DNA of 64,000 nt, from assembly GCF_000263735.1 (NCBI RefSeq), contig NC_017946.1:971348-1035347 (forward strand). Direction: 5' to 3'. How positions within the stretch are numbered: the first letter of the stretch is position 1; each line of letters begins with the position of its first letter. This document shows positions 26,775-48,439 of this stretch, one piece after another. The stretch comes from Pyrococcus sp. ST04. Lineage in GTDB: Archaea; Methanobacteriota_B; Thermococci; Thermococcales; Thermococcaceae. The notes under the pieces are model-generated. The model was not told where the DNA came from. It saw nothing but the letters and a program-made list of their open reading frames with translations, and made no database searches. The translations under genes were made by a program, and so were the position numbers.

Positions 26775-26880
26775 CTATAGTGAGTGCAGTTGGATGAAAA
26801 CTTTTATCAGTGTAAAGGCGAGGTTGAGAGGCACAGATTTGTGGTACTGATTTTCTCCAGCATTAGAAGTATGGCCGCTA
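26775..26880 (-). pseudogene. Remnant of a third membrane-protein paralogue (3' end only)
   Basis: On the minus strand the last codons read LAFTLIKVFIQLHSL followed by TAG. The intact gene at 25159-25953 ends LASILIKVFAQLHSL and a stop. Base-level similarity (AAAACTTTTATCAGTGTAAA against AAAACCTTTATCAGTATAGA) extends over about 90 bases. Upstream of this the similarity fades, so only the C-terminal end of an old copy survives. Confidence 0.7.
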
Positions 26881-27006
26881 CCCCCTTTGTTTGGGTCGCC
26901 TAACTTCAATTAAGTACTGTGCTTATAAAGGCTCCCTAGGTTTGATGAATTTCCTCAAACCCAGCTGATATGTATGATGAAGGCGGAATATTAATAGTGA
27001 TGTCCG

Positions 27007-27186
27007 ATGGTTAGTGAGGGATCTATCGCTGGCCGTTCTGCTGTGAGAACGATAACTGGAGAACTCGTGGAATTTATAGCCAGGGAAACTGGTCTCGATA
27101 AAAAGATCATTCTAATGGTCTTGAAAGCTGAGGAAGACTTTCTCATGCTTCAGATATCTAAGAGCTTAGGAAGTGACCAGCCATGA
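27007..27186 (+). CDS. 59-residue protein coupled to the giant surface-protein gene
   Basis: The reading frame begins MVSEGSIAGRSAVRTITGEL and continues as a probably all-helical basic/acidic protein (ELVEFIARETGLDKKIILMV then an acidic helix). Its TGA overlaps the ATG of the giant gene (ATGA). It has no signal peptide, unlike the giant product. A TTATAAAG box (26921-26928) lies about 80 bases upstream. The weak ribosome binding site (GTGATG) is a caution, but the overlap and protein-like composition make it credible. Role unknown; it may assist translation or export of the giant protein. Confidence 0.6.
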   Translation: MVSEGSIAGRSAVRTITGELVEFIARETGLDKKIILMVLKAEEDFLMLQISKSLGSDQP

Positions 27187-30100
27187 GGAGGGTTAGCCTT
27201 ATTGTTTTGATGATTCTTCTCGGCTCCCTATTACCTCATAACTTTGTACTCCACGAGAGAGTTCTCGCCCAAGCGGGGCCTTCCGATATAGTCGTTTCGA
27301 ATCCAAGGTATACCGTGGAGAACGGGAAAATAATTGTTTCCGTTCCTATTGAGAATAGGGGAGGGTCGGGAAGTCCATTTAACCTCACGTTCTCATTCAT
27401 TGGTTTCATAAGTTCTCCAGAGCCTGAGGAGGTTCCCTTCACATGGTTCAACACGAGCAGGATGCTTGAAAATTCGCGTGAGGTTTCGTCGGGGGAAGTA
27501 GTTAATGGTAGTGTCGTGCTAAGGGACGACGATGGCTACATAATATACGAACTTCCCTTTGAGCTGAACTTCTTTGGTATTCCCGTGAAAAAACTCTCGG
27601 TCAGCACCAACGGCTACGTGGAGCTGATGACGGAATACGAGGACACTATCTCCGAGGGGGATTACGAGGTATGGGATTTCCTCTCCGAAAGCAGGAGAGA
27701 CTTCGTAGCTGGTCTCGATGAGGATCTCGAAACCGAGGACGGCTATCTGCTCGTGGCCAGAATAGAAAACGGCGTCGTGATTGAGTGGTTTGGCTCAACA
27801 TGGGATGAGTACGACTCGGAGAACTACCCCATCAACTTTCAGCTGATAATACTTTCCAACGGGACGCTCATATGGAGCTATGGTCGTCTCAGGGCCCTAA
27901 GCTACGGCAAGGCGGGGTACTTCTCAAGGGTCTCACTCGAATCCAGGGAGATTGAGCCTGAGGAAGGAAAAAGCTACTCTCTGAGCCTCCCCCAAGTGAC
28001 TCCAACAGTTCTGAAAGTTCAGATTCCACCCATGGAAGAGAATGAAACCCGTAACGTCTCCATAATTTCGCCGGTGGACGAGGGATACGTGCGCATTTTT
28101 GCTGACTTGGAAGAGACACTAAATGAGGTCGACCGCTCAAACAACTTTGCTGAGCTGTGGCTCTGGCCCGGAAACTACTGGATAGAAAACGTCAGCATTG
28201 GCAATGTAACCCCCGGCGAATTCGTCGAGGTAAACTTTACGGTGAAAACAACTTCAAGGCATCCGGAGCCTGTGGCGGTGAGGCTCCTAAAGAATGGGGA
28301 AGTAGAGGTAGAACGCCACATCTGGAACCTCCCAGCGGAGGGTCTGACAGGGGCTCTTCACTGGCTTGCCCAGGGCGGGAGCTACAATCTGAGCCTTGAG
28401 ATAGATGCAATGGGAGATACAAACCTGAGCGACAACTGGGTCTATCTTGGAGAGTACTCCTTCCCGTTGCCGAACTTCAGGATAGTAAATTACTCCATTG
28501 AAGTGCCCCACTGCTCTGGCTCCCCGGCGAGGATAAGGGTGAACGTGACCAATGATGGATCGCTGAACTGGAGCAATGTGGGGGTAATGGGGGCACTCAT
28601 GTACAGCGACGGAACCATGTCACCATTCTGGACCTTCATACCATTCCTGCCTGCAGGAAAAACTGCCGAAGTTCTGCTGGAGCCCGTGGTTGCCCCAGGG
28701 AACATAACCGGGGTTCGTATAGAGGTTGATCCCTACGACTGGGTCGAGGAGTCTAGTGAGGACGACAACTCTGTGAGCGTTGACCTTTCTCTGAGCATTG
28801 AAATGCCTGACTTTACTGTGGTTGGAATGGAGATTCCTTCAAACGTAACGACTGGGGAATCTTACCTGGTAAACGTTACCCTGGACAACCTGGGAGGCTG
28901 CTACGGTGGGGCTGTGGGAGTTAGGCTCTACGAGAACGGTCGCGATGAAGACTCAGAATACGTAGAGATAAACGGAACTACTAAAGTCAGTCTGAGGTGG
29001 TCACCTTCGGCGATAGGATGGGTCAATCTCACCGTCGCAGTCGATCCATACAATGTGATAGCTGAGCTTAGAGAGGATAACAACGAGCTAACTGAGAGAG
29101 TTTTTGTGAGAGGGCCCGATATAACGATAACGAACGTTGAACTGGTGAGCTTTGACGGGATAGCAGGAAGCCCGGCCGTCTTCAACGTGACGCTCAAGAA
29201 CCTCGGTGAAACCTTCACCAGCGGGTTTTATATCAAGGCCTACGGGGGCCTCAGTACGAGCACAATATATGTTCCTGGAGGGCTTTCGAAGGGCGAAGAA
29301 AAGACCGTGGCGATGGAAATCTACGCTAACGCTGGGAACGTTACCATCTATTTTAAAGCCGATTCCTCCGACAGGATAACGGAGACGAACGAGTCAAACA
29401 ATGACTTTTCATACGAACTGAATGTTCCCTTGCCAAACTTTAAGGTTGAAGCTATATCCCTCCCCGAAAACACCGTCGGCTACGTTCCGGTAAACGTCAC
29501 GGTGAGGAACATCGGAGCACCCTACAACGGCACGCGCTTTCCGCTAACGCTCAAGATTTCCATTGGGGGACGTTCAAGATACTATTACATCAGGAATCTT
29601 TTCGGAAGCAACGAAACGATAACCAAGCAAGGGACTATAATTATACAGGCTCCAGGAGGGCTTGTGAATGCAAGTGTCTATTCAAACGTCAATGAAACAT
29701 CTAAATCCGACAACTGGTTGGCCATGAACGTCTCAACCGGCTATCCCGACCTGGTAGTAGAGATTCATCCGCCGGAGGTTTCAGCCGGGAGCTACGTGCG
29801 GGTCAACTACACCGTGAGGAACCGCGGGAACGCGACCCTCTTCCTTAAAGGAACCTCCCTACCCGTGAAATACGGAATTGAATACGAGGACGGGAGAAGA
29901 ATAACCGGAGGGACCTGGATAAGCAACCTTGTTCTGGAGCCTAACGGGACAGCTGAGATAAGGCCCTACCTCAGGTTCAATGGAGGCAGAAACATCTTGT
30001 TTGGTGTTATAGATGAGGCGAACCGGTGGGTGGAGAGTAACGAGGACAACAACAATGCCACCCTCCTGCTGGAGCTGGATAAGCCGGATTTCGCAATAGC

Positions 30101-33100
30101 AAACTATTCGATTCCGGATGAGGTTCTCAACGGCAGTGCGTACCTTTACCATCAGTATGGAATCGAGGTCAACGTCACTAACCTCGGGGGAGAATTTATG
30201 GGACATCTGATAATTGCCCTGCTTGTCGATGGCAGGGTGAATGAATTAACCGGATTCTACAACCTTGGAAAGAACGAGACCAAGGAGGTAACCCTCTACT
30301 ACAGGCCTGAACCCGGGAAACACAACCTAACGATAGCACTCGACTACAGTAACGAGTGGATAGAGGAGAGGAAAAACAACAACAATGCCACCGCTATGAC
30401 CGCTGAGTTCGGGATGCCCGACGTGACTCCGGTTGGCGTGACATGGGAGCCCTACAACTTCACCTCGGGCGAGAGGGTAACCTTCAAGGTTTACCTGAAG
30501 AATCTAGGCCAGGCTTTTGAGAAATCATTCACAACCCGGATTGAAATATGGAACGGAAGCAGCAGGCTGGCGTATGGTACTGCTTATCCCTATCCCTACG
30601 GCTACACCTTCCGGGAAAATGAGACGCGGGAATTCAGATGGATCTGGTACGGTGCAGAGCCTGGGAACTTGACCCTCAGGGTAGTGGCGGATTACTACAA
30701 CTACCTGCCGGAGACCAACGAGACTAACAATAACCTCACCGTTGACCTTGGAAGCATCGGAACTCCTGACTTCGAGTTGAGCAACCTGAGCGTTGGAGAG
30801 CTGGCCTTTGGAAGGTGGGTGGATGTTAACGTCACACTCAGAAATCTCGGGGAGAGCATATACAGACCTTTCAACGTGCTCTTCAACCTTAGCGGGAAGA
30901 CTTACTATGAGACCGTCTACGGCATCGGTGCAAACGAGATGAGGATTCTCAGTAGGCGTTGGTACGTTGATAGAACCGGAGAACTTAAGGTGAGGGTGGG
31001 GGTTGATCCAAGGAATGAAATAGTAGAAACGAACGAAACGAACAACTGGATCTCTGCAATCTACCACGTAGAGCCTCCAGAACTTTTCATAGTCTCATAC
31101 AGGTGGGAGAGGCATGAACTGGCAAGCGGATACTTGGCATTCACGGTGAACGTGACGAACTCCGGTGGAGACACCTACAAGGGCTTCTATCTTGCTATGT
31201 ACGTTGATGGTTCACTGAAAGCCCGTGTTTGGGTTCCGACGCTTCTTTCGGGTGAGACCTTGGAGAAAACCCTGAGATGGCGCCTTGATACAGGAGGAAT
31301 GCACGAAGTCTGGCTGGTGATTGATGATGGCAATTTGATTCCAGAAACTGACGAGGACAACAACATCGTGAAGACCAACGTCACCATTGAGCTCCCAGAC
31401 ATTGAGGTCGAGGGGGTCTCGGTTCCTAAGATGCATGCCAATGCACTATTTACTATTAACATTACTCTGAGGAATTCCGGCATCCAAGACATCGAGAGAT
31501 CATTCTTCGTGGCGGTGTACCAGGACGACAAATACCTCGGGGGAGCATGGGTTAATTCTCTTCCTGCGGGAGATTCAAAGAAAGTTGGGATAGCGGTCAG
31601 GCCCTATCCAGGTGATTCCACCATAACAGTCGTAGCGGATCAGTACAACACCATTGTCGAGGCCAGCGAGGACAACAACGAACTCTCGGTGACCGTTCAC
31701 GTCAGTGCCCCAGATCTGAGGGTTATCTCTTTCTCTCCCGGAAACCCAGGGTACTCCGGAGAGACTGTAAACGCGACTGTTATCATAAGGAACGAGGGGG
31801 ACTACGAGACGGGAACATTCCAGTTGGCGATTCGCGAAAACAGGAAAACCCTTGGAAGCGTGTACGTTGAAAGCCTTATGCCTGGGGAGGAGCTAAACGT
31901 CACGGTACCTTGGAAGGCAGTACCGGGAAGATACAACGTTACCGCGGTCGCCGATCCATACAACGTCATTCGGGAATGGGACGAGAGCAATAATGCCCTG
32001 AGCATTCCGGTCGTCGTTCCGGCGCCAGATTTGAGCGTTTTAAGCTTCAGTTACTCTGGCAGGAGGATAGCAGGGGAGAGCATGAGTTTCATCGTAACAG
32101 TTGCGAACAAGGGAAACACCACCCTGTTGCCGTTCTACGTGGTTATCTATGCTAACTCCACTGTTATTGGTGTCAAAAGGCTCAACGGACTCCAATCGGG
32201 AGAAGTAAGAACCATTTACTTTGAGAATTCCTGGAAAGCCCGCTATGGGAGCTACGTTCTTAGAGCCGTGGTTGATCCCTATAACAAGATAGCTGAGCTG
32301 AGGGAGGACAACAACGAGGCCAATGTGTCGGTATTCATAGACGACGAGACTCCCCCGTCAGTAGTTACTCTCTACCCAGCCAACGGAAGCTTCACTAATG
32401 AGGCACTCATCGGTGTCCTTCTGAGTGATGAAGGATCTGGAGTTGATCTTGAAAAAAGCCAGTTGAAGATTTATCGCGAAGGTATTCCAGTTGAAGGCTT
32501 AGGTGAGGCCTCGTGGGGGTGGCTTATCTTTAGGAACTCAACACCCCTTCTAGACGGAAACTACACGGTAATTCTCACGGCCGTGGACAGGGCTGGTAAC
32601 TCGATAGAGTACTCGTGGAACTTTGTTCTTGACAGGAAGGCACCAGTGATTTCCAGCAACATCGTCAACGGCACCCTTTACAACGGGAGTGTGGTGCCGG
32701 CGATCAACGTCACCGACGAGAACCTGCTGAACTATAGGGTAACCGTTAACGGGAGAGAGTTCCGTGGCGGGGAGATACGGGCTGACGGGAGTTACCTCCT
32801 TGAGGTCTTTGCTGTGGACAAGGCAGGTAATAAGGCGAGATATTCAGCCTGGTTTACGGTCAACGGCATTCCCCATCCACCATCGGGTCTTACACTGAGG
32901 ATGGAAGGAAAGTACGTGGAGCTGAATTGGCTTCCAAGTGGGGATTCGGACATCGCTGGATACTACGTTTACGTGGATGGAAAGAGGCTCAACGAGGAAC
33001 CGGTGGAGGTCACAACCTTCAGGGATATCTTCAGGGGAAGCCTCAACTACAGCGTAACGGCGGTTGATTTCATGGGCTTCGAGAGCGAACCAGTTCAAGT

Positions 33101-36100
33101 ATTCCCTGTGAGACTTGAAATAGAGACCGAGAAGATGGTAGTGGGCTACCCAACCGAGGTCAGAGTGAATATTGAGAACCTAGATGGACCAGCCAACGGG
33201 ACGCTGAGGCTTGAGCTAGTGGACGTCTTTGGAAACATCATCGAGGGTATCGTTAGAAACGTTAGTCTCATCCCTGGGAACGGCACCGAGAACTTTGAAG
33301 TCGTAGTTCCACAGGGTCTTAGCTCGCTTAGGGCTTCCCTGACCATCAATAACTCTGGAACTTTAGCCGTCCTTCCGGTGATTCCCGAAGAAGCCGAGGC
33401 CCCAGTAATTCTCCCTCAAAAGCTTGAAACTGGTCTTCCCGGGCTCGTGGAGGTCAGATTGAGGAATCACGGTTCCAGACCGCTCGACACCTCCAAGGCC
33501 ACTTTGAGGCTGGGAAACATTACAGGGGAGGCCATTGGAGTTCTCCCAACAATTTCTCCAGGTGAGGAAGCGGTTCTCCGCTACCGTATCGTTCCGCGGG
33601 AAAGGGGGCTTCAAAACCTGACTTTCCGTCTGGGATACTTATCAGCAACGATAGAGGTTAATATCAGAGATCCGGTAACGAGTCCAGTTATGGTGTCCAC
33701 AGAGAACTTCGTGCGTGGGGCTAGAGCAAAGGTTTACGTCACCTTCAGAAACATTGGCACAGCACCGCTGAGGGTTGCGGATGTTGAAGTGCTCGGAATG
33801 AGGCGGAGTGTCGGGCTTCTCCTCCCACCAAATCTCTCGGTGGAGCTTCCCTTTGAGTACACGGTACCCCAGAACGCCTCGCGGATTCTCATAAACGCCA
33901 CCGTCTTTACCGATGTGGGAACGTTCAGGAGGAGCATCGTGGCAGAAACTGCGGAGCCAACTTACAATGCCAACGTCACGGTTAAGCCGGTCTTCACAGT
34001 TGGAGAGGATGTGCTCATCGAGGGATTCGCCTACAATTCAAGTGGCCTTCTTGCTAACGTTCCGGTCAAGGTTAGCGTCCTCCGTGGTGACTTCGTGAGG
34101 GAATACTACGTGGTCACCGATGGAACGGGACGCTTTAACCTCACATTCCGGCCGTTAAGGGGAGAATACGGGCACTTCATCGTGAGTGCGACCCATCCGG
34201 CTGTCGTTGCCCCGGAGAGGGACGGGGAGTTTGATATAGTCGGCCTAACCCTTATCCCCGATGTATATGACCTCACGGTTACCCGGGAGTTCACTGGGGA
34301 AATTGAGGTAGAGATAATCAACCACTGGCTCGACTCGAACGTCTCGGTTGATGTTAGTGCTCCGGAGACCTACAACGTTACAGTTCCCCCGAAGATAGAG
34401 CTGAAAAGTGGTCGCAACCGCCTGAAGATTGGACTTTCCAGCAAGAGTGCGGTTAATGGAACCATAGTGATAACCTTCAGAGCTGTCCAGCTGGGGATTG
34501 AAGTGAAGAAGAACCTTACCGTGAGGGTTAACGTCCTTCCACCCGCTCCAAGAATAGAAATCGAACCCCTCAGCCTCGATGTAGGACTTTTGACTAACGA
34601 GAGTGCTAGCAGGACAATAACGGTAAAGAACACGGGATTCGAAGAGCTCAGGAACGTTAGTGTCGTCTCGTCCATAGAATGGGTAAAGGTTGTTTCGGCA
34701 TTCACCGGGCTTGAAGCCGGAAAATCAGGGGCCATAAGTCTCTACATAGCTCCCCCTGAGAACCTAACCGGGACGTTCGAGGGGAGTATAAGGATATCTT
34801 CCTCAAATTACAGGGACATTTATGTTCCAATCAGGATAACTGTAACTCCAAACGCCAAAGGCTCCCTCAGGGTCATCGTCATGGATCCCAACGCCACAAG
34901 GCTAGAAAAAGCTGAGGTTACACTCTACAATGGATACGCCCATTTTGAGGGGAAGACGGACGAAAACGGAACGGTGATCTTCACCGACGTTCCAATCGGA
35001 GAATACACGCTTATAGTGGGTGAGGAGAGCCACTATACTTCAAGCAGGAAGGTTGTCATAGAGGCAGGACTGGAGAGGAATCTAACTGTAGTGCTTATGC
35101 CCTCGGTGCTGGAGATTGAATGGGAGGTCGTGCCTGTAACCATAGAGGACGTCTACATCATAAAGCACGAGATTGGTTACACTACCTACGTTCCCGCTCC
35201 AGAGATAAAAACATACGGTGGCGATCTTGAGGTTTACATAGACTATGAAAAGCTGGCGGAGTTGGGGATAGTAGAGTTCCGGGGACAACTCATAATCAGG
35301 AACACCCATCGCTACGTATCGGTCTTCAATATCACCTTTGAGAGCGGTGGCAACCACTACATAGATGTAGAGTTTATGGTGGATAGAATAGACGAGCTGA
35401 AGCCCGGAGAAACCGTAATAGTACCCTACGTGGTGAGGATTTACTACCAACGCTCGCCGCCTATAAACCCGTGCCTCCACGAGACCAAAGTCTTTATCCT
35501 CAAAGCGGGCGTTGTTTGTGTGGAGGAAGCTGGAAAGATAACCTTAAAGGCCCAGAAAGTGCACAGGTTGATAGTCAAGCCAACCTGCGACGGTTGCTGG
35601 AAGAGCCTGCTAAACATAGGTGCGCACATACTCTTTGAGAAGCTGAGCGACAAGCTGGGAGACCTGCTTGAGAACAATGAGATAGCCAAAGACTCCGGGG
35701 ACAAGGCGCTTGAAGCTTTGAAGGAGCTATATGAGGCATACTATCAGATGAGCATGAACCCCACCGATGAGAACATAAAGAACTATGAGAAAACTCTCCA
35801 GAAGTTCAAAGGAACTCTTCTGGAGATTGGAAAGACCGCCCTGGCAAAGTACGGCGAGAAGTACCTTGAGAACTATCTCTCCACCGAGGGAATTGAGTTC
35901 GACTTGATACTCGATGAAAAGGGTCAGGTCGTCGGGTTTGTGATACCTTCTGATGTCACTCCGATGTACCCAGAGGTCATGAGCACTATCAACGTGCAGA
36001 ACGGAAACGTTCAAGTGAACTGGGAGGAAGCTGAGAAACTTGCAGACAAGCTAACTGGCGGGGTTATATCGGAACTCAAGGAGAAGGCCGAGAACCTGTG

Positions 36101-39100
36101 GATAGTCGAGATGATCAACCTAATAGTGAAGCTTGTTGATGATTACACGCCAATGATAGCTGAGGCCGGAATGAACTGTGCTATCTGCCTACTTCACAAC
36201 AACTGCAGTCCGCCAAATGTCGGGGAGATGAGACCAATCCAGCTCATACGCACGGCCTACTTCACCGGATACGACGGAGGCGGAGCCGGGGGCGTTTCGG
36301 GAGGCGGTGTCCAAGGGGAAACCAGCGTTGGAAGGTTCACGTGCGAGGGTCTTCCGAGACCAAAGAATTCCACGTCACAGACATCGCAACCAACGACTAA
36401 CTCATGTACGGCTTGTAGCATCAAAACTAATCTCTCTGACCCGGGGGAGAGGAAAATCTGCGTTAATCTCCCAGTGAGAAACCTTCCATCCCAGCCCCTC
36501 CAGGAGAACGAGAATGGAGAAGCGCAGAACATGCTTCACATGTGCGTTGATCTGGTCATAACCATAGAACAGAGACTCACCTTCGAGAGACAGGCATTCA
36601 GGGCTTCACTTAGGTTCACTAATACTAATGCCAACTACAGCCTGGAGGATGTCAACGTTACCTTGGTCTTCTTCGACGATAACGCTAAGGATGCAGGCGA
36701 GAGGTTCTTCGTGAGGCTCGAGGAGAGGAGCGGTCTGAACAACGGAGTACTACAACCAAAGGGAGAAGCAAGCTTCAGGTGGCTCATAGTGCCTAAGGTG
36801 GGGGCGGCGAGAGAGTTCAGAACGAGATACTACGTAATGGCCAATGTTACCGCAAAGCTCGGCGACTCCAGACTTGTCTTTGAGACCTGGCCGGCTGTGA
36901 TAGAGGTTAAGCCGGTTCCCCAGTTGGAGCTCGACTACGTGATTCCAAGAAAGGTCTACGGCGATGACCCATACACCCCGGAGATAGAGCAGCCAGTGCC
37001 CTTCATATTCGGATTAAGGGTGAAAAACGTTGGGTATGGAGAAGCCAGGAACCTGAGGATAGCATCAGCCCAGCCCAAGATAGAACGTTCCAACTATCCA
37101 GGAGTGTACATAGATTTCAAGCTACTAGGAACCATCGTTAATGGAAAGGCAGCCCCCAACAGTCTAACGGTGAACTTTGGGGATCTAAAGCCCGGAGAAA
37201 GCTCAACGGCAGCATGGATAATGAGCGCGGAAGTAACGGGAGATTTCGTTTATTACAATGCCACCTTCCAACACAGCGACGAACTAGGTGGAAACGAAAC
37301 GTCCCTAATAAGGGTTCTGAGAACACACTTTCTCTTTAGGGCCTTCAACGACACCGCCAACGACGATGGGATGATGGACTTCCTAGTGGATGATGATGGG
37401 GACGCCATTCCAGAGATGATAATCGACTCCAACGGGGAGGATTATCCCGTTCTGAAGGTCAACTTCACGGAGGAGTATGGGAGAGGCTTTAGAAAGGTAA
37501 TTCCTCTGGTAAAATCCCCAGGTTGGATCTACATGGCGATACCAGTTAGCGGGTTCACGAGAGCGACGAGGAGCGATGGAAAAGAACCAGTGGCCCAATG
37601 GATTGATAACGAAACTCTCCATCTTTTGGATCTTGGAACCTCGGAATTCTACGTTCTAAAGGCTAACCGCCCGCCGGTTCCGGTGGTGAGGGTCAGTGAA
37701 CCCATTCTCGTCAACAGAACAGTAACCCTTGATGCATCATTGAGCTACGATCCAGATGGTAGAATCATTAGATACCTCTGGCGGATTGGCAACGATACTT
37801 TAGAAGGCCCCCTGGTGAGCTATACTTTTAGAGAAGTTGGAAACTATACGGTCATTCTGACTGTCTGGGACGAAGAAAACTCCAGTGCCTCCATAACAAG
37901 AAACATCAGGGTCTATCTGGGCCCGAAGTTCGTCGTTGAAGTGGGAACTATTCCGGAGTGGGGAATAGTGCCCTTCAACGTCACCGTTGAGGTTAGCGTT
38001 ACCAACACTGGGGATACTCTAGGCACATACAATCTTACTATCCTCATCGACAATCAGCTGGAAGTGGTTGAGGAGGTAACACTTCAGGCAGGTGAAATGA
38101 GAAATCTAACGTTCCCGGTTGAGATAACGAGCGCGGGTGAGCATGTAATCTCCGTTAATGGAAAGAACGCAACTGTGTTGGCCTACTGGAACATAAGTCT
38201 GAGTAAAAACGAGACCCTTAAATACACGAAGGACTTCGGATTCTACGATTCCCTAACCTGGGAACCCTTTGTGAAGGACTTCAATAACTGGACCGCACAA
38301 TTGCTGGAAAACGTCTCCCTCCCAGAGCTAATGCTTGAAAGGATACTCGACGAAAAGGTCTCCAACTGGACACTTGTGAATCGCTCCGAGAACCTCAATC
38401 CTCGGGAAAAGGAGGGTTACATTAGAGCCATATACTTCAGAAACGCCACCATCAGAGGAATATCCGGGTGGAACTACACTACCGTAAGGGTAGCTCAGAG
38501 AGTGGTGATCTTCGCGAACGCAAGTCACAGGCTCGATGAGGAGCCACCGACGATACGGGTAACCCCGGAAAGTGGTGTCTATGAGAGAATACCAGTTCTC
38601 AACGTTACAGTCATTGATGAAACCAACGTCACGGTCTGGGTGGAGACGAAGAGGGGCAGGAAAAATCTGACGCTTCTGCTAAAGAATGGCAACGTGTCAG
38701 TTTGGACCGGTATGCCACCCCTTGGGCTTGGGAACAACACGGTTACTGTCTATGCAGAGGACTACTTTGGAAATCGGGCCAATGAGACGCTCTGGATTTA
38801 TCTCAACCCCAAAGCTCCCATAGTTACGATAGAGAGCCCGGAGGAGAAAGTTTACAACTCCAGACAGGTCTGGATAAACTACACCGTAATCGATGATGAT
38901 CTCGTTGGTGTGAAAGCCTACCTTGACGGGAGGCTCATCTCGACTAACTCCTCGTGGAGCGTCAAACTGGTGCTCGACTATGGAACTCACAACTTCACAG
39001 TCGAGGCGTGGGATGTCAGCAACAACGTCACGGAGACTGTCATGTTTAGAATAAACGAACCTCCCACAGTGAACTTCACGTGGAGTGCTGAGTATCTAGA

Positions 39101-40676
39101 GGTGAGCTTCCAAGCCAATTCAAGTGATCCTGACGGCATAATCGAGTATCTATGGGACTTTGGAGACGGCTCAACTGGTCGTGGAGCAAATATTACCCAT
39201 GTCTATGCTAACGGAGGAGTTTACAACGTCACGTTAATTGTTTGGGACACCTACAACCTCAGCTCAAGCATTACTAAGATGATAGAGGTCTTCGCTAATG
39301 TGAGTCTGAGTAGAAACGAGACCTTTGAGTACACCAGGGACTTTGGATTCTACAACTCGACATCGTGGGAATCCTTTAAGAGAGACTTCGAGGAATGGGT
39401 TAACGAGATCCTTCGGGAGATTAAAGTTCCAGAAAGCGAGTTTGACGAGGTGTGGATCGTAAAAGCTGATAACTGGAGCCTCATAAACCACACTGAGAAC
39501 CTCTTACCCGGCTCCGGTAACGGCTGGATAAACGCCACCTATCGCCGTGTGGTTATCATGAAGGGCTTAATTGATCACAACGAGACGACCATGCTTGTAA
39601 TTCAGAGGGTTGTCCTCTTCGGCAGCGCAACCAACGTGAAGGATGTGGAACCTCCGCTCGTGAAAATAGTCTATCCCGAGAACAGAACCTATGATCACAA
39701 CGTTACCGAGCTAATTGTGTTCGTCAACGACTCCACGGTAGTGGCGTCAGTGGTAGCGGAGCTCGATGGGGAAGCTGTTACTCTAATCCAAGCCAATGGC
39801 TCGTGGCGGGCAGAAATAATGGCAGGGGATGGGAGACACCGGATCGTGGTTATCGCAAAGGACATATGGAACAACACCGCCATTGAATGGGTAAACTTCA
39901 CCGTCAACACCACAGTTAGGATTACCGAAATCAATGGGACGGAGATAGTCACAATTCCTGGCGAACTTGAAAGCGCGATCATCGTTCATAACGGACTGCT
40001 TAGGATAACACTTGAATTGGGAGGAGAGAGTGTCTCCCTAGGATTCTCCCTCAGGAAGCAGGTGCTCATAGACGAACGTCTCTGGGAAATGCCGTGGCTC
40101 GCGGTAAGAAGTGGAATGAATATGGGGAGAATTTCAGTTCGGGAGGAGACCATAAGGAAGGCAGGTAAGCTTTATGAGAGAAGAACGTTCAGGATCGAGG
40201 CAATGGGACAAGGTTACGCTGTGCTAATGCTTCCGCTGAATGGAATGGAGGTGGTGAGAGTTACCATCGAGAAAAACGGAACAACTTATGAACTCGGCAC
40301 TACCAATGAGGGCAAAGTCGGCTACTACGGAACCCTCGGAGGATACCTCTACGTTGTCATTAGAGAGGATCCAGTAGTTGAAATTGAGCTTGAAAAAGTG
40401 CTCAAAGAAGAGAAGAAAACTCCGAACTGGTTTGCTCTAGGTTTGTTGTGGGAACGCTGGTACCTAGCGCTTAGAAACGAGTTCATTAAATTCCACATGA
40501 ATTGCACGAACGAGACTGCGCTTGAAAAGGCTCTAAAATTACACAAAACGGCAGAGGAGTACTACACAAAAGGAAAGGAATACTATCCAAATGTCCCTGT
40601 ATTGTACGCCATATACATGAGAAAGGCATATCTGCTTGAAAAACAGGCGATCGAAATTGTGAGGCCTTACACTTGA
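27183..40676 (+). CDS. Giant secreted multi-domain protein (CARDB, FN3-like, PKD), 4497 residues
   Basis: The N-terminus (1-31) is a signal peptide. Residues about 90-270 form a beta-rich nidogen-like module (STNGYVEL, FVAGLDEDL, FQLIILSNGTLIWSYG). About 14 CARDB-type Ig units follow up to residue 1720, each about 107 residues and ending in a D/N-rich motif such as REDNNEL. Then come an Ig-like unit, an FN3-like unit (about 1896-1970), more CARDB-like units, carboxypeptidase-regulatory-like folds (about 2270 and 2560-2636), a helical Cys-containing region with a GG-rich linker (about 2640-3120), an Asp-rich calcium-type motif (about 3390) and two PKD domains (about 3500-3580 and 3958-4037). 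A duplicated NETxxYTxDFGFY module lies around the second PKD. No C-terminal membrane span or CGP-CTERM tail is present. Very many NxS/T sites suggest heavy glycosylation. Adhesion or an S-layer-like structure is inferred. Confidence 0.85.
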   Translation: MRRVSLIVLMILLGSLLPHNFVLHERVLAQAGPSDIVVSNPRYTVENGKIIVSVPIENRGGSGSPFNLTFSFIGFISSPEPEEVPFTWFNTSRMLENSREVSSGEVVNGSVVLRDDDGYIIYELPFELNFFGIPVKKLSVSTNGYVELMTEYEDTISEGDYEVWDFLSESRRDFVAGLDEDLETEDGYLLVARIENGVVIEWFGSTWDEYDSENYPINFQLIILSNGTLIWSYGRLRALSYGKAGYFSRVSLESREIEPEEGKSYSLSLPQVTPTVLKVQIPPMEENETRNVSIISPVDEGYVRIFADLEETLNEVDRSNNFAELWLWPGNYWIENVSIGNVTPGEFVEVNFTVKTTSRHPEPVAVRLLKNGEVEVERHIWNLPAEGLTGALHWLAQGGSYNLSLEIDAMGDTNLSDNWVYLGEYSFPLPNFRIVNYSIEVPHCSGSPARIRVNVTNDGSLNWSNVGVMGALMYSDGTMSPFWTFIPFLPAGKTAEVLLEPVVAPGNITGVRIEVDPYDWVEESSEDDNSVSVDLSLSIEMPDFTVVGMEIPSNVTTGESYLVNVTLDNLGGCYGGAVGVRLYENGRDEDSEYVEINGTTKVSLRWSPSAIGWVNLTVAVDPYNVIAELREDNNELTERVFVRGPDITITNVELVSFDGIAGSPAVFNVTLKNLGETFTSGFYIKAYGGLSTSTIYVPGGLSKGEEKTVAMEIYANAGNVTIYFKADSSDRITETNESNNDFSYELNVPLPNFKVEAISLPENTVGYVPVNVTVRNIGAPYNGTRFPLTLKISIGGRSRYYYIRNLFGSNETITKQGTIIIQAPGGLVNASVYSNVNETSKSDNWLAMNVSTGYPDLVVEIHPPEVSAGSYVRVNYTVRNRGNATLFLKGTSLPVKYGIEYEDGRRITGGTWISNLVLEPNGTAEIRPYLRFNGGRNILFGVIDEANRWVESNEDNNNATLLLELDKPDFAIANYSIPDEVLNGSAYLYHQYGIEVNVTNLGGEFMGHLIIALLVDGRVNELTGFYNLGKNETKEVTLYYRPEPGKHNLTIALDYSNEWIEERKNNNNATAMTAEFGMPDVTPVGVTWEPYNFTSGERVTFKVYLKNLGQAFEKSFTTRIEIWNGSSRLAYGTAYPYPYGYTFRENETREFRWIWYGAEPGNLTLRVVADYYNYLPETNETNNNLTVDLGSIGTPDFELSNLSVGELAFGRWVDVNVTLRNLGESIYRPFNVLFNLSGKTYYETVYGIGANEMRILSRRWYVDRTGELKVRVGVDPRNEIVETNETNNWISAIYHVEPPELFIVSYRWERHELASGYLAFTVNVTNSGGDTYKGFYLAMYVDGSLKARVWVPTLLSGETLEKTLRWRLDTGGMHEVWLVIDDGNLIPETDEDNNIVKTNVTIELPDIEVEGVSVPKMHANALFTINITLRNSGIQDIERSFFVAVYQDDKYLGGAWVNSLPAGDSKKVGIAVRPYPGDSTITVVADQYNTIVEASEDNNELSVTVHVSAPDLRVISFSPGNPGYSGETVNATVIIRNEGDYETGTFQLAIRENRKTLGSVYVESLMPGEELNVTVPWKAVPGRYNVTAVADPYNVIREWDESNNALSIPVVVPAPDLSVLSFSYSGRRIAGESMSFIVTVANKGNTTLLPFYVVIYANSTVIGVKRLNGLQSGEVRTIYFENSWKARYGSYVLRAVVDPYNKIAELREDNNEANVSVFIDDETPPSVVTLYPANGSFTNEALIGVLLSDEGSGVDLEKSQLKIYREGIPVEGLGEASWGWLIFRNSTPLLDGNYTVILTAVDRAGNSIEYSWNFVLDRKAPVISSNIVNGTLYNGSVVPAINVTDENLLNYRVTVNGREFRGGEIRADGSYLLEVFAVDKAGNKARYSAWFTVNGIPHPPSGLTLRMEGKYVELNWLPSGDSDIAGYYVYVDGKRLNEEPVEVTTFRDIFRGSLNYSVTAVDFMGFESEPVQVFPVRLEIETEKMVVGYPTEVRVNIENLDGPANGTLRLELVDVFGNIIEGIVRNVSLIPGNGTENFEVVVPQGLSSLRASLTINNSGTLAVLPVIPEEAEAPVILPQKLETGLPGLVEVRLRNHGSRPLDTSKATLRLGNITGEAIGVLPTISPGEEAVLRYRIVPRERGLQNLTFRLGYLSATIEVNIRDPVTSPVMVSTENFVRGARAKVYVTFRNIGTAPLRVADVEVLGMRRSVGLLLPPNLSVELPFEYTVPQNASRILINATVFTDVGTFRRSIVAETAEPTYNANVTVKPVFTVGEDVLIEGFAYNSSGLLANVPVKVSVLRGDFVREYYVVTDGTGRFNLTFRPLRGEYGHFIVSATHPAVVAPERDGEFDIVGLTLIPDVYDLTVTREFTGEIEVEIINHWLDSNVSVDVSAPETYNVTVPPKIELKSGRNRLKIGLSSKSAVNGTIVITFRAVQLGIEVKKNLTVRVNVLPPAPRIEIEPLSLDVGLLTNESASRTITVKNTGFEELRNVSVVSSIEWVKVVSAFTGLEAGKSGAISLYIAPPENLTGTFEGSIRISSSNYRDIYVPIRITVTPNAKGSLRVIVMDPNATRLEKAEVTLYNGYAHFEGKTDENGTVIFTDVPIGEYTLIVGEESHYTSSRKVVIEAGLERNLTVVLMPSVLEIEWEVVPVTIEDVYIIKHEIGYTTYVPAPEIKTYGGDLEVYIDYEKLAELGIVEFRGQLIIRNTHRYVSVFNITFESGGNHYIDVEFMVDRIDELKPGETVIVPYVVRIYYQRSPPINPCLHETKVFILKAGVVCVEEAGKITLKAQKVHRLIVKPTCDGCWKSLLNIGAHILFEKLSDKLGDLLENNEIAKDSGDKALEALKELYEAYYQMSMNPTDENIKNYEKTLQKFKGTLLEIGKTALAKYGEKYLENYLSTEGIEFDLILDEKGQVVGFVIPSDVTPMYPEVMSTINVQNGNVQVNWEEAEKLADKLTGGVISELKEKAENLWIVEMINLIVKLVDDYTPMIAEAGMNCAICLLHNNCSPPNVGEMRPIQLIRTAYFTGYDGGGAGGVSGGGVQGETSVGRFTCEGLPRPKNSTSQTSQPTTNSCTACSIKTNLSDPGERKICVNLPVRNLPSQPLQENENGEAQNMLHMCVDLVITIEQRLTFERQAFRASLRFTNTNANYSLEDVNVTLVFFDDNAKDAGERFFVRLEERSGLNNGVLQPKGEASFRWLIVPKVGAAREFRTRYYVMANVTAKLGDSRLVFETWPAVIEVKPVPQLELDYVIPRKVYGDDPYTPEIEQPVPFIFGLRVKNVGYGEARNLRIASAQPKIERSNYPGVYIDFKLLGTIVNGKAAPNSLTVNFGDLKPGESSTAAWIMSAEVTGDFVYYNATFQHSDELGGNETSLIRVLRTHFLFRAFNDTANDDGMMDFLVDDDGDAIPEMIIDSNGEDYPVLKVNFTEEYGRGFRKVIPLVKSPGWIYMAIPVSGFTRATRSDGKEPVAQWIDNETLHLLDLGTSEFYVLKANRPPVPVVRVSEPILVNRTVTLDASLSYDPDGRIIRYLWRIGNDTLEGPLVSYTFREVGNYTVILTVWDEENSSASITRNIRVYLGPKFVVEVGTIPEWGIVPFNVTVEVSVTNTGDTLGTYNLTILIDNQLEVVEEVTLQAGEMRNLTFPVEITSAGEHVISVNGKNATVLAYWNISLSKNETLKYTKDFGFYDSLTWEPFVKDFNNWTAQLLENVSLPELMLERILDEKVSNWTLVNRSENLNPREKEGYIRAIYFRNATIRGISGWNYTTVRVAQRVVIFANASHRLDEEPPTIRVTPESGVYERIPVLNVTVIDETNVTVWVETKRGRKNLTLLLKNGNVSVWTGMPPLGLGNNTVTVYAEDYFGNRANETLWIYLNPKAPIVTIESPEEKVYNSRQVWINYTVIDDDLVGVKAYLDGRLISTNSSWSVKLVLDYGTHNFTVEAWDVSNNVTETVMFRINEPPTVNFTWSAEYLEVSFQANSSDPDGIIEYLWDFGDGSTGRGANITHVYANGGVYNVTLIVWDTYNLSSSITKMIEVFANVSLSRNETFEYTRDFGFYNSTSWESFKRDFEEWVNEILREIKVPESEFDEVWIVKADNWSLINHTENLLPGSGNGWINATYRRVVIMKGLIDHNETTMLVIQRVVLFGSATNVKDVEPPLVKIVYPENRTYDHNVTELIVFVNDSTVVASVVAELDGEAVTLIQANGSWRAEIMAGDGRHRIVVIAKDIWNNTAIEWVNFTVNTTVRITEINGTEIVTIPGELESAIIVHNGLLRITLELGGESVSLGFSLRKQVLIDERLWEMPWLAVRSGMNMGRISVREETIRKAGKLYERRTFRIEAMGQGYAVLMLPLNGMEVVRVTIEKNGTTYELGTTNEGKVGYYGTLGGYLYVVIREDPVVEIELEKVLKEEKKTPNWFALGLLWERWYLALRNEFIKFHMNCTNETALEKALKLHKTAEEYYTKGKEYYPNVPVLYAIYMRKAYLLEKQAIEIVRPYT

Positions 40677-40729
40677 TTCCCGGAAGGGATTTATACTTCT
40701 TTTTTTATAAAGCTCATTGAGGGATGTGT

Positions 40730-43003
40730 GTGAATACACTTGCCCTGCTTAAGGCTCTCTCCAACGAAACGAATCTTCAGATACTCTCCCTTCTGAGGTC
40801 AGGATCATTCCATCCAAGGGAGCTGGCAAGGCTTCTTCAGAGGAGTGAGAGTGACGTGTCGAGAAGACTGAAAAAACTGGAGAAGCTGGGACTTGTGGAG
40901 GGGAGATGGATTAGACTCGGGGATAGAAACGTTAGGATATACTCCCTCAAGGTGAACGAAGTAAAAGTTAACTTCCTGCCGGGAGAGGTTCAGGTGGGTA
41001 TTAAAGAGGCTGAATCCTATAGGCTTCCCATAACATTTGAAGATGTCCCAAAGACTAGCTTCTTCGTAGGAAGGCACGATGAGGTTGAGATTCTCAAAAA
41101 TGCAAAGGGTAAAGTGGTTGTCGTTTATGGAATTGCAGGAATTGGTAAGACCAGCCTCCTTGCAAGGGTTTTTCCTGAAGCATTCTGGTACTCAATGAAC
41201 GGCTCGGAGAGCTTCGAATACTTCGCCTGGCAGCTTAGCCTCTACCTAAACTCCCTGGGATATCGGGCCCTCATGGAGTATCTTCGAGGCGGTGGAAAAG
41301 AGGAAAAGGAGCTGTTTGAGCTGATTCTCGAAGGAATAGACGAGACAGAAAGTGTCATCGTGATAGACGACCTCCACAAGTGCCAGGACGAGACACTTAT
41401 GAGAATGCTCTCTTATCTGGCCGGAAGGCTGAAGAAAGGTACCATCGCCGTTGCATCGAGAGTCAAGCCCCTCCTCGGCATCGAGGGAGTAATCTACATA
41501 AACCTAAGTGGCCTGGAACCTGGGGAGGCCTACGAACTGGCAAAAAAGATTAAAAAAAGAATCCCTGTGGACAAATTTGCCAAAATCTACCGCATAACCA
41601 GAGGGCACCCTCTGGCACTCATCCTTTTGCTCGAAAGCTCAGGGGAGAGCTTGGAAGAGGCTAAAGAGAACATCTTTGAGTTTCTTTTCACGGAGATTTA
41701 TCGTTCTCTGACCGAAGAGGAGAAGCGGATGCTTCTAATGCTTTCTATCTTTGAAGAACCCCTTGAATATGAGGCCATTAAAACCCTTTATGGTGGCAGG
41801 AAAACCTTTTTCATTCTCCACTCTCTACTGAGAAAGGGACTGGTAGAGAGGAGGGGCAGTCAGTACTTCATCCACGACATGCTGAGGGGGTTTCTCAGAG
41901 AAAAAGAAACTTTTGAGAGCAGAACCTACTACCTTGAGTATGCGGAGTACCTCATTCAAAAAAATACCCCCAGAGACTTCCTGAAGGCCTTCGAATATAT
42001 ACTCAAAGCCGGAGCCACCGAGAAAATAAGAGAATTAGTGGAACTTCGAATCCGGAGGTTCAAACACCTGCCGGGAGACTTTCCGAAAACATACAGGAGG
42101 ATACTATCCCAAGCGGGGGATAACCCCTACGCTCGGGGAGAACTGGGTATAATCTACTTCAACACAGGATTCTTCCAGAAGGCCAGAGATATCCTCCTAG
42201 AGGTGGAGGACAAAATTGAGGGCCTCTTCAAAGCGGAGGTTGTGAGCACCTTGGCAGATGTTTTCCTCGTGCTTGAGAACCTAGAGATGGCTGAGAGATA
42301 CCTTCAGAAGACGAAGGAGCTAGCCGAAGAACTTCAAGATCCTGAGGTGTGGCTTTGGTATTACATGGAGAAAACGAAGTACGAGTACTATCGCCGAAAC
42401 CTTGAAGAAGCTTTGAAGAGTGCGTTTAAGGAGCTAGAAGTGGCACGAGAGCACGGAAGAAGTCCGGAAGACGAGGGGCTAGTGCTCCTTCACATAGGAG
42501 ACATATACCTCGACCTGGAGCAACCAGAGGAGGGAATAAAATACTACGAAGAGGGCCTAAGGGTAGCAAAAGCATACGGGCTGACCTTTATCGAACACGT
42601 TACGTACATGGAGCTATCCAAGACACACTACATACTCGGGAACTACCGGAAAGCCGTCTCCTATGGAAACCGGGCCGTGGAGTACTTTTTGAGAATCAAG
42701 AACTACCGCAGGGCAGTGGATGCCCTGGCTTACAGATGCGTATCATGGATAGGGCTCGGCGAGGCGGAGAGGGCAGAGGAGGATGCCAGGGAGCTCATTA
42801 GAATCGCCCACAGTACTGGCTATCCTCTTGCGTGGGCTGGCTACATCTTCATGGGAGCGGCAAAGTTTTTGAAGGGAGAGGATGGGTCTAGTTACGTGGA
42901 GAAGGGAAGAAAACATTTCCAGGATTATCCCTGGCTTTTTGAGGCTGTAATTCAAGAACTTGAAAGGGTTTTTGAGTTCCCCAAGGAACTAAAACTTAAG
43001 TAG
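40730..43003 (+). CDS. STAND-type NTPase regulator: HTH, NB-ARC-like ATPase, TPR repeats
   Basis: The 757-residue protein has three parts. Residues 1-75 are an ArsR/MarR-like winged helix (LALLKALSNETNLQILSLL, HPRELARLLQRSESDVSRRL). Residues about 110-370 are a STAND ATPase with a FVGRHDE entry motif, Walker A GIAGIGKTS (about 134), Walker B SVIVIDDLH (about 209) and GHPLAL. The C-terminal half is TPR-like helices (about 470-730). The layout is that of MalT-like signal-dependent regulators. GAGGG placed six bases before the GTG at 40730 favours that start over the ATG at 40724. It lies 53 bases after the giant gene with its own TTTATAAAG box, so it may control that locus. Confidence 0.85.
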   Translation: MNTLALLKALSNETNLQILSLLRSGSFHPRELARLLQRSESDVSRRLKKLEKLGLVEGRWIRLGDRNVRIYSLKVNEVKVNFLPGEVQVGIKEAESYRLPITFEDVPKTSFFVGRHDEVEILKNAKGKVVVVYGIAGIGKTSLLARVFPEAFWYSMNGSESFEYFAWQLSLYLNSLGYRALMEYLRGGGKEEKELFELILEGIDETESVIVIDDLHKCQDETLMRMLSYLAGRLKKGTIAVASRVKPLLGIEGVIYINLSGLEPGEAYELAKKIKKRIPVDKFAKIYRITRGHPLALILLLESSGESLEEAKENIFEFLFTEIYRSLTEEEKRMLLMLSIFEEPLEYEAIKTLYGGRKTFFILHSLLRKGLVERRGSQYFIHDMLRGFLREKETFESRTYYLEYAEYLIQKNTPRDFLKAFEYILKAGATEKIRELVELRIRRFKHLPGDFPKTYRRILSQAGDNPYARGELGIIYFNTGFFQKARDILLEVEDKIEGLFKAEVVSTLADVFLVLENLEMAERYLQKTKELAEELQDPEVWLWYYMEKTKYEYYRRNLEEALKSAFKELEVAREHGRSPEDEGLVLLHIGDIYLDLEQPEEGIKYYEEGLRVAKAYGLTFIEHVTYMELSKTHYILGNYRKAVSYGNRAVEYFLRIKNYRRAVDALAYRCVSWIGLGEAERAEEDARELIRIAHSTGYPLAWAGYIFMGAAKFLKGEDGSSYVEKGRKHFQDYPWLFEAVIQELERVFEFPKELKLK

Positions 43004-43120
43004 ATGGTTCTGGGACGTGAAGAATTTAACCCGAGGGGGAGGCTTTTAAAAGGGAAATGTAATACAAAACTTCCTTCTCGATTATCTTGAACACAACTAC
43101 ACTCTATCACAACTCACCTC

Positions 43121-46668: not shown

Positions 46669-47277
46669 GTGAGGCTCTATCGGACAGGAGAGGCATCACA
46701 ACGCTTGGGCATCAGCAAACCAACCCTCCTCAGAAAAATCAAATCCGGTGAGATTAAAGCCTACCGGGTCGGGAGAGAATACCGCATCCCCGAAAGCGAA
46801 ATCAAAAGGCTCCTTGAGGGCAAAACCCTTGATAAAGTCGTCATTTACGCAAGAGTCTCAAGCCGAGACCAGAAAGAGGACTTAGAGAGGCAGATCGAAT
46901 ACCTCAAAAACTACTGCACCGCCAAGGGTTATCAGGTCGTGAAAATCATCACAGACATTTCCTCCGGCCTGAACGAGAACAGACGGGGCTTAAAACAACT
47001 CTTCAAACTTGTGGAGAGCGGAGAAGTCGGGAAAGTCGTGGTAACTTACAAGGACAGGCTCACCCGCTTTGGCTTCAAATACCTCGAACAATACTTCAAC
47101 TCTCACGGCGTTGAAATCGAAGTCATCTTTGATGATGAAGAGAAAACTCCAGAGAAAGAACTCGTTGAGGACTTATTAGCCATCGTAACTTCCTTCGCTG
47201 GAAAACTCTACGGGATGCGTTCTCACAAGAAAAAACGCCTTGTAGAGGCGGTAAAGAATGCCCTCAGAGACGATTAA
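46669..47277 (+). CDS. tnpA: IS607 serine recombinase TnpA
   Basis: The 202-residue protein starts with a MerR-type helix-turn-helix (LYRTGEASQRLGISKPTLLR, AYRVGREYRIPESEIKRLL). The small serine recombinase domain follows, with catalytic Ser in VIYARVSSRDQKEDLERQ (about residue 67) and DRLTRFGFKYLEQYF near residue 128. It performs strand exchange for transposition. GGTGGGG six bases before the GTG at 46669 supports this start. The 3' end overlaps tnpB by 20 bases. Confidence 0.92.
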   Translation: MRLYRTGEASQRLGISKPTLLRKIKSGEIKAYRVGREYRIPESEIKRLLEGKTLDKVVIYARVSSRDQKEDLERQIEYLKNYCTAKGYQVVKIITDISSGLNENRRGLKQLFKLVESGEVGKVVVTYKDRLTRFGFKYLEQYFNSHGVEIEVIFDDEEKTPEKELVEDLLAIVTSFAGKLYGMRSHKKKRLVEAVKNALRDD

Positions 47278-48439
47278 ACTGACAGCAAAATTCAAGCTCA
47301 AAAACCCTCCAAGAGAATTAGACGACCTCTTCTCCACTTACCATAAGATTGTGAATTACCTCATAACTTACGCCTTTGAGAACAACGTAACCAGCTTTTA
47401 CAGGCTGAAAAAAGAGACTTACAAAAACCTTCGGAAGGAGTATTCAAGCCTTCCAAGCCATTACCTCTACACGGCCTGTCAAATGGCTACATCAATTTAC
47501 AAGAGCTACAGGAAGAGGAAAAGGAAAGGAAAAGCTAGAGGCAAGCCCGTTTTTAAGAAGGAAGTCATAATGCTGGACGATCACCTATTCAAGCTCGACC
47601 TTGAGAAAAGGGTAATCAAACTCTCAACGCCAAGTGGGAGAATTATCTTAGAGTTTTATCCAGCTAAATACCACGAGAAGTTCAAGGGCTGGAGGATTGG
47701 GCAGGCTTGGCTCATCAAAACGCCCAAGGGGGTCTTCGTCAATGTAGTCTTTTCGAAAGAGGTTGAAGTTGGTGAGCCTAAAGCCTTCGTCGGCGTGGAC
47801 TTGAACGAGAACAACGTTACCTTAAGCCTTCCAAACGGTGAGTTCGTGCAAATCATTACCCACGAGAGAGAAATTAGGACTGCCTACTACTTAAAGAGAA
47901 GGAGGGTTCAGAGGAAGATTAGGGCCGGGAGAAGGAGAGAGGAACTCCTTGAAAAATACGGTGAGAGGGAGAGGAACAGGGTTAACGACCTTCACCACAA
48001 GTTGGCGAACAAAATCGTTGAGCTGGCTGAAAAATACGGTGGGATTGCCTTGGAGGATTTGACGGAAATCAGGGAGTCGATAAGGTATTCTGCCGAGATG
48101 AATGGTCGCCTGCACAGGTGGAGCTTCAGGAAGCTTCAGAGCATGATCGAATACAAGGCCAAACTAAGGGGTGTTAAGGTCGTTTTCGTGAATCCCGCTT
48201 ACACTTCATCCCTGTGCCCGGTATGTGGGGGGAAGTTAAGCCCGAATGGGCACAGGGTTTTGAAGTGTTCGAACTGTGGGTTTGAGGCTGATAGGGATGT
48301 GGTTGGGAGTTGGAATATTCGCCTGAAAGCCCTGAAGATGTGGGGAGTAACCGTTCCCCCCGAAAGCCACCCGATGAAGATGGGAGGGTGGAAGCCTACC
48401 CGTTACGAGATTAACGCTCCACACACAACTAACGGGTAG
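47258..48439 (+). CDS. tnpB: TnpB RNA-guided nuclease of an IS607 element
   Basis: The 393-residue protein has the TnpB RuvC-like site: FVGVDLNENNVTLSL (first Asp about residue 181), GIALEDLTEIRES (Glu about 266) and DRDVVGSWNIRL (last Asp about 347). A zinc finger CPVCGGKL...CSNCGFE lies between the last two. TnpB is an RNA-guided DNA nuclease related to Cas12 that helps retain the element. All catalytic residues are present and the length is near the usual 370-420. The C-terminal about 40 residues after the RuvC motif are typical. It overlaps tnpA. Confidence 0.92.
   Translation: MPSETIKLTAKFKLKNPPRELDDLFSTYHKIVNYLITYAFENNVTSFYRLKKETYKNLRKEYSSLPSHYLYTACQMATSIYKSYRKRKRKGKARGKPVFKKEVIMLDDHLFKLDLEKRVIKLSTPSGRIILEFYPAKYHEKFKGWRIGQAWLIKTPKGVFVNVVFSKEVEVGEPKAFVGVDLNENNVTLSLPNGEFVQIITHEREIRTAYYLKRRRVQRKIRAGRRREELLEKYGERERNRVNDLHHKLANKIVELAEKYGGIALEDLTEIRESIRYSAEMNGRLHRWSFRKLQSMIEYKAKLRGVKVVFVNPAYTSSLCPVCGGKLSPNGHRVLKCSNCGFEADRDVVGSWNIRLKALKMWGVTVPPESHPMKMGGWKPTRYEINAPHTTNG

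Follow-up and report, generated by a model that had tools for sequence, protein, structure and literature searches.

Comparison of a three-gene locus of Pyrococcus sp. ST04 (Thermococcaceae; genome of 1,736,885 bases) with its relatives points, with a probability that we put at roughly 0.6, to a self-contained and horizontally exchanged unit in which a STAND regulator of the PH0952 type is predicted to switch a single surface-coat operon via a palindrome in its promoter. The cargo of this operon is of at least three exchangeable types, namely a CARDB giant, a NosD β-helix giant and a transglutaminase-like/207-aa pair, while the constant parts are a small protein, the regulator and the palindrome.

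Locus organisation, regulator and cargo

The features of the locus are collected in Table 1 in coordinates of the window, by which we mean the whole 64,000-nucleotide stretch of DNA that was analysed. A preliminary description of this DNA had named three open reading frames here; all are real and lie where it placed them, the small gene and the giant gene do overlap (ATGA at 27183–27186), and the codon use it had judged deviant by eye is indeed so, with a GC3 of 0.595 for the giant and 0.566 for the STAND gene against 0.35–0.55 in most other genes of the window. The gap between giant and regulator is 47 bases (40677–40723) rather than the 53 given there. The duplicated membrane proteins said to flank the block exist as a pair that is 24% identical, but only on the upstream side; downstream of the regulator lie an ACT-domain protein and a laminin-G-like protein. 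A TnpB-like gene (IS605 OrfB/Cas12f-like TNB) occupies 47258–48439, about 4 kb downstream of the regulator.

Table 1. Features of the locus in window coordinates
Feature	Position	Strand	Evidence or remark
Palindrome AGGTTTGA-TGAATTTCC-TCAAACCC, candidate operator	26938..26962	+	Cargo-operon promoters of related genomes
TATGTA, probable weak TATA box	26969..26974	+	TAAGTA in most relatives
59-aa cytoplasmic α-helical hairpin protein, gene 1 of the operon	27007..27186	+	Relatives in other genomes, dN/dS, AlphaFold
4497-aa secreted CARDB/PKD/Ig giant, cargo type A, with N-terminal signal peptide	27183..40676	+	ORF, domains, orthologs
C-terminal three-helix domain of the giant	40428..40673	+	Also found in NosD-type giants and numerous large secreted proteins of Thermococcales
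TTTATA, probably the promoter of the regulator gene itself	40690..40695	+	Palindrome absent here
759-aa STAND regulator with ArsR-like wHTH, NB-ARC NTPase and TPR sensor; PH0952 ortholog	40724..43003	+	
Transferred unit; DNA about 91% identical to G012 (another genus)	26890..43032	.	Both ends intergenic

The regulator combines in one chain, and in the same order, all three domains of the PH0952 type (HTH_5 at residues 15–59, NB-ARC at 126–314, TPR_12 at 587–654), and the Walker A motif GIAGIGKT is largely invariant across its family. Among solved structures that of PH0952 from P. horikoshii is the closest (6MFV; profile match E 3.7e-297), and the P. horikoshii locus of our survey (L066, genome G006) encodes PH0952 itself (identity over 652 residues) in a gene that adjoins its own giant and small gene. 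In the text available of Lisa et al. 2019 (PMC6468293), PH0952 is called a predicted transcription factor with orthologs conserved in over 10 Thermococcales, and its structure, its autoinhibition and its resting state as an ADP-bound monomer are described; the same text yielded no target, operator, inducer or gene neighbourhood for it. The regulator is therefore known, as an ortholog of PH0952 (PDB 6MFV), whereas the operator, the small partner and the exchangeable cargo appear undescribed. No description of these three was found in the literature searched, a coverage that left most subscription journals outside. Two tandem STAND regulators, one per subgroup, are seen in three genomes (L067 5727–10273, L077 1453–6010, L064 1981–6328).

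The giant is an acidic protein of about 502 kDa with 11 CARDB, two PKD and further Ig-like domains, and its signal peptide is its only transmembrane stretch. It carries 148 N-glycosylation sequons, where its composition would predict only about 44, and is probably heavily glycosylated. Its C-terminus, YAIYMRKAYLLEKQAIEIVRPYT, belongs to the three-helix domain that CARDB and NosD giants have in common. That domain was considered as a tag specific to this system and rejected, being present in 82 of the 94 genomes surveyed on many large secreted proteins of unrelated architecture. Such a distribution makes a general surface-retention module the more likely interpretation, and the domain may represent an unrecognised module for surface retention or anchoring. 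The alternative cargoes are the NosD β-helix giant of 1700–1900 aa and a secreted pair of 540 aa and 207 aa, the larger of which is transglutaminase-like by weak Pfam matches. At one locus (L041 5528–7210) the 540-aa protein also matches NCBIfam antiphage_ProA over 172 residues (E 2e-13; 48.6 bits against a cut-off of 1500), probably because of the transglutaminase-like domain.

Co-occurrence, cargo exchange and transfer

In the survey of 94 Thermococcaceae genomes the regulator was found in 31, one of which (G071) has a broken gene. The small protein occurs in 28 genomes, all of them among the 31 (Fisher p = 7e-21), and its gene and the regulator gene normally share one locus. The giant core is likewise confined to regulator-bearing genomes (12 of 12; Fisher p 3e-7), as is the intact 540-aa cargo gene (19 of 19, plus one relic; Fisher p 4e-12). 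The regulator is present without the small protein in G046, G052 and G060, all draft genomes, and in G060 neither a small gene nor an operator is recognisable beside it. In G072 the regulator lies about 6 kb from the giant, and in some genomes its orientation is divergent. Recurrent adjacency in related genomes, strict co-occurrence and block transfer together show that the link between the three genes is not accidental. The preliminary description had held its proposal refuted if STAND and giant genes were never neighbours in related genomes, and the proposal withstands this check.

The small gene stands either directly before the CARDB giant or directly after the 540-aa/207-aa pair, in which case a NosD β-helix giant or the regulator itself follows. 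The tree of regulators requires at least five switches of cargo type, so that the cargo changes while the small protein and regulator stay. G050 and G055 each hold a second 540-207-small operon away from their sole regulator. The two operons of this type that have no neighbouring regulator, L045 (8390–10787) and L051 (6413–8823), carry an operator variant that recurs at the giant operon elsewhere in the respective genome.

The 16.1 kb block has its counterpart in G012, which belongs to another genus, and no other part of the window can be aligned with that G012 stretch; between a gene beside the G012 copy and its ortholog in the window genome, identity is only 71% at the DNA level and 83% at the protein level. 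Because both ends of the block fall in intergenic DNA, the palindrome and all three genes were transferred together. Loss is seen in the Pyrococcus genome G008, which is collinear with P. horikoshii around the site and lacks about 15.8 kb; of the unit it retains no more than the operator and the last part of the regulator gene. No carrier of the STAND gene was found in the plasmid and phage record collections searched.

A candidate operator at the cargo operon

Promoters of the cargo operons contain the composite element GGGTTTGA-N9-TCAAACCC, followed after exactly 6 bases by TAAGTA, TATGTA or TATATA. Palindrome and box precede the operon in every promoter compared, for A-type and 540-type cargo alike, and the loci of G006 and G072 also carry the palindrome. 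The window copy (26938–26974) falls inside 26880–27010, the first of two DNA sites proposed beforehand for testing regulator binding. From the start of the box to the start codon there are 38 bases in the window and about 37–38 at many relatives, a spacing consistent with an archaeal TATA box and a short leader. The second site named beforehand, 40677–40730, holds no operator and only a TTTATA box, and regulator genes of A-type loci generally have this box without the palindrome.

The composite pattern has 29 exact matches in the 94 genomes, all at cargo operons. As it was derived from cargo-operon loci, its presence there is given by construction, and what is informative is that it is missing elsewhere and also from regulator-free genomes, apart from relic loci (exact in G076; with one mismatch in G008). 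In the window the exact palindrome core occurs once, and shuffled sequence is expected to give 0.37 matches at up to 2 mismatches. A single exact palindrome lies outside cargo operons in the 94 genomes (G029 at 1343171); it coincides in part with the start of an unrelated gene, no TAAGTA box accompanies it, and it is therefore judged a chance occurrence rather than a further target. Palindrome sites with one mismatch were considered among the matches listed, through G087. No compensatory changes between the palindrome arms are seen among loci, which argues for a DNA site rather than an RNA stem; since the palindrome moreover lies upstream of a box at TATA distance from the start codon, a leader RNA hairpin was rejected.

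Four loci with the divergent type of regulator have the operator arm GGTTTGG instead of GGTTTGA, and exactly these have the recognition helix DETQISRG instead of DETDVSRR in the regulator. This co-change is supporting evidence only, as the four loci are related and three of them near-identical. In the two genomes with one STAND gene and two operons, the same CAAAGCC change is found in both operators. The operator, the candidate target of the PH0952-type regulator, appears to be new.

The small helical protein

The 59-aa reading frame is a real gene, given its relatives in other genomes and its low dN/dS (0.11 against the closest relative, at most 0.26 in other pairs). AlphaFold predictions from 30 sequences give a two-helix hairpin (helices at 6–28 and 32–55) with a mean pLDDT of 83 that rises to about 96 in the core. 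These proteins of about 50 residues have no above-threshold match in Pfam or NCBIfam, and a profile from 30 members recovered no further member in 115 genomes of the phylum. Identification as a known HTH or HU protein was considered and rejected, since all such matches are sub-threshold (to HU-type PF00216 for 11 of the 30 members, and to several families of HTH). The likeness to HU consists of these weak sequence matches and of HU hairpins as the best, non-significant fold matches (none with E below 1); HU has a β-sheet saddle with DNA-binding arms, whereas the small protein has two predicted helices, with only 47 conserved residues, and no such elements. Its constancy while the cargo changes suggests that it acts on a constant partner, the regulator or the operator, rather than on the cargo.

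Discussion

Our results support a model in which the regulator would be made from its own TATA promoter and rest as an ADP-bound monomer, as PH0952 does in the available text of PMC6468293. A signal at the TPR sensor would then trigger ATP binding and multimerisation, and the ArsR-like winged helices would bind the palindrome abutting the poor TATA box and so recruit the basal transcription factors. The position of the operator and the poor TATA box suggest that the regulator acts as an activator rather than a repressor. In the window genome one operon would be switched on, yielding the 59-aa protein and, through translational coupling to it, the giant, and the output would be a changed surface coat, built from the CARDB giant here and from a β-helix giant or a transglutaminase-like pair in relatives. 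MalT is held in check by the inhibitors MalY, Aes and MalK, and a feedback partner of the STAND regulator is likewise the role that we rank first for the small protein, a more tentative step suggested by its constancy alone. The signal-gated surface system proposed in the preliminary description is thus upheld in part: control of a surface protein by a MalT-like regulator best explains the data, and a candidate operator is in hand, but among the roles named there (adhesion, biofilm, predation or defence) the data single out none. The giant, moreover, has at least two alternatives with which it is exchanged as cargo. Whether all of this amounts to an undescribed archaeal coat switch, with a one-operator STAND, a constant 50-residue helical partner serving as ligand or inhibitor of the STAND sensor, and an exchangeable giant slot moved between genera as a unit, is possible though on balance doubtful.

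The palindrome could have another reader. The small protein might itself bind it as an autoregulator, with the STAND protein doing something else, such as sensing surface stress and relieving the small protein. The small gene always lies in a palindrome-bearing operon, also at L045 and L051 with no STAND gene beside it, and its weak family matches are mostly to DNA-binding helices; yet the predicted fold is a bare hairpin resembling the dimerisation part of HU without the β arms that contact DNA, the clear wHTH belongs to the STAND protein, and where an operator change is common to two operons of one genome the small proteins there differ. We regard this autoregulation as unlikely. Still less probable is a palindrome that serves an unrelated or global regulator, the STAND gene being merely a co-inherited neighbour. 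Archaeal promoter sites can be shared by global regulators, and the promoter of the regulator gene itself lacks the palindrome in most loci; such a regulator should, however, have further sites, and the exact composite site is found nowhere else in the 94 genomes, nor in regulator-free genomes except as relics.

Control of the cargo operon by the STAND protein could also serve conflict rather than the coat, with the giant or its substitutes directed at other cells or viruses and attack sensed by the STAND protein. A defence system would suit the patchy distribution, the movement between genera, the exchange of cargo and the deletion seen in one Pyrococcus genome; STAND proteins are known in immunity, and VARTIG provides an earlier example of variable Ig modules in Thermococcales (PMC8416519). 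Against this, PADLOC defence models find no match in the giant, the small protein or the 540/207 pair, the STAND protein itself has hits only to HTH and TPR models and, weakly, to NTPase ones and carries no effector domain, neither a toxin-like domain nor an immunity gene is present, and CARDB, PKD and β-helix repeats fit structure or adhesion; defence therefore seems distinctly improbable. That the genes merely hitch-hike on a common mobile island without common function is very hard to credit: the block was transferred between genera and two genomic sites recur, but gene order, ATGA overlaps and a conserved promoter of fixed spacing are maintained, relics decay together, and the plasmid and phage records searched contain no copy of this STAND gene.

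Among known systems, MalT of Escherichia coli is, like PH0952-type proteins, a STAND protein with a TPR sensor, and is an activator that rests as an ADP-bound monomer and multimerises with ATP (see also PMC6468293). In MalT, DNA is bound by a C-terminal domain of LuxR type and the targets are many, whereas the regulator described here has an N-terminal ArsR-like wHTH, no LuxR-type domain and apparently a single genomic site. It differs from anti-phage STAND proteins (Avs-like) in that no Avs model is among its PADLOC matches and it has no nuclease-like effector domain. VARTIG (PMC8416519) is similarly restricted to Thermococcales, lies in patchy islands and encodes a large secreted Ig/CARDB-like protein. 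Compared by description, VARTIG starts with an arCOG07710 protein followed by small membrane proteins, whereas here the 59-aa protein comes first; the large Ig protein of VARTIG has the motif D[ND]NxxxG[GD] within its 15 C-terminal residues, a motif that this giant lacks, and the terms STAND and HTH are absent from the VARTIG paper. No statement on the locus was found in the T. barophilus secretome paper.

PH0952 is a structural model for STAND proteins with TPR sensors, described in the available text as lying between MalT and APAF1, and purified protein that lacks the DNA-binding domain has been crystallised (PMC6468293). The candidate operator, the predicted one-operon regulon and the conserved small partner make activation of PH0952 directly testable, and its sensor family gains a first concrete candidate target; an exchangeable-cargo surface-protein unit is moreover described in Thermococcales. 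Relatives of the regulator outside Thermococcales have mostly NTPase-level similarity. On one Desulfurococcales contig (L081 4634–9029), a single case, an HTH-STAND gene of 33% identity is immediately preceded by a subtilase gene, an arrangement that may be a distant parallel.
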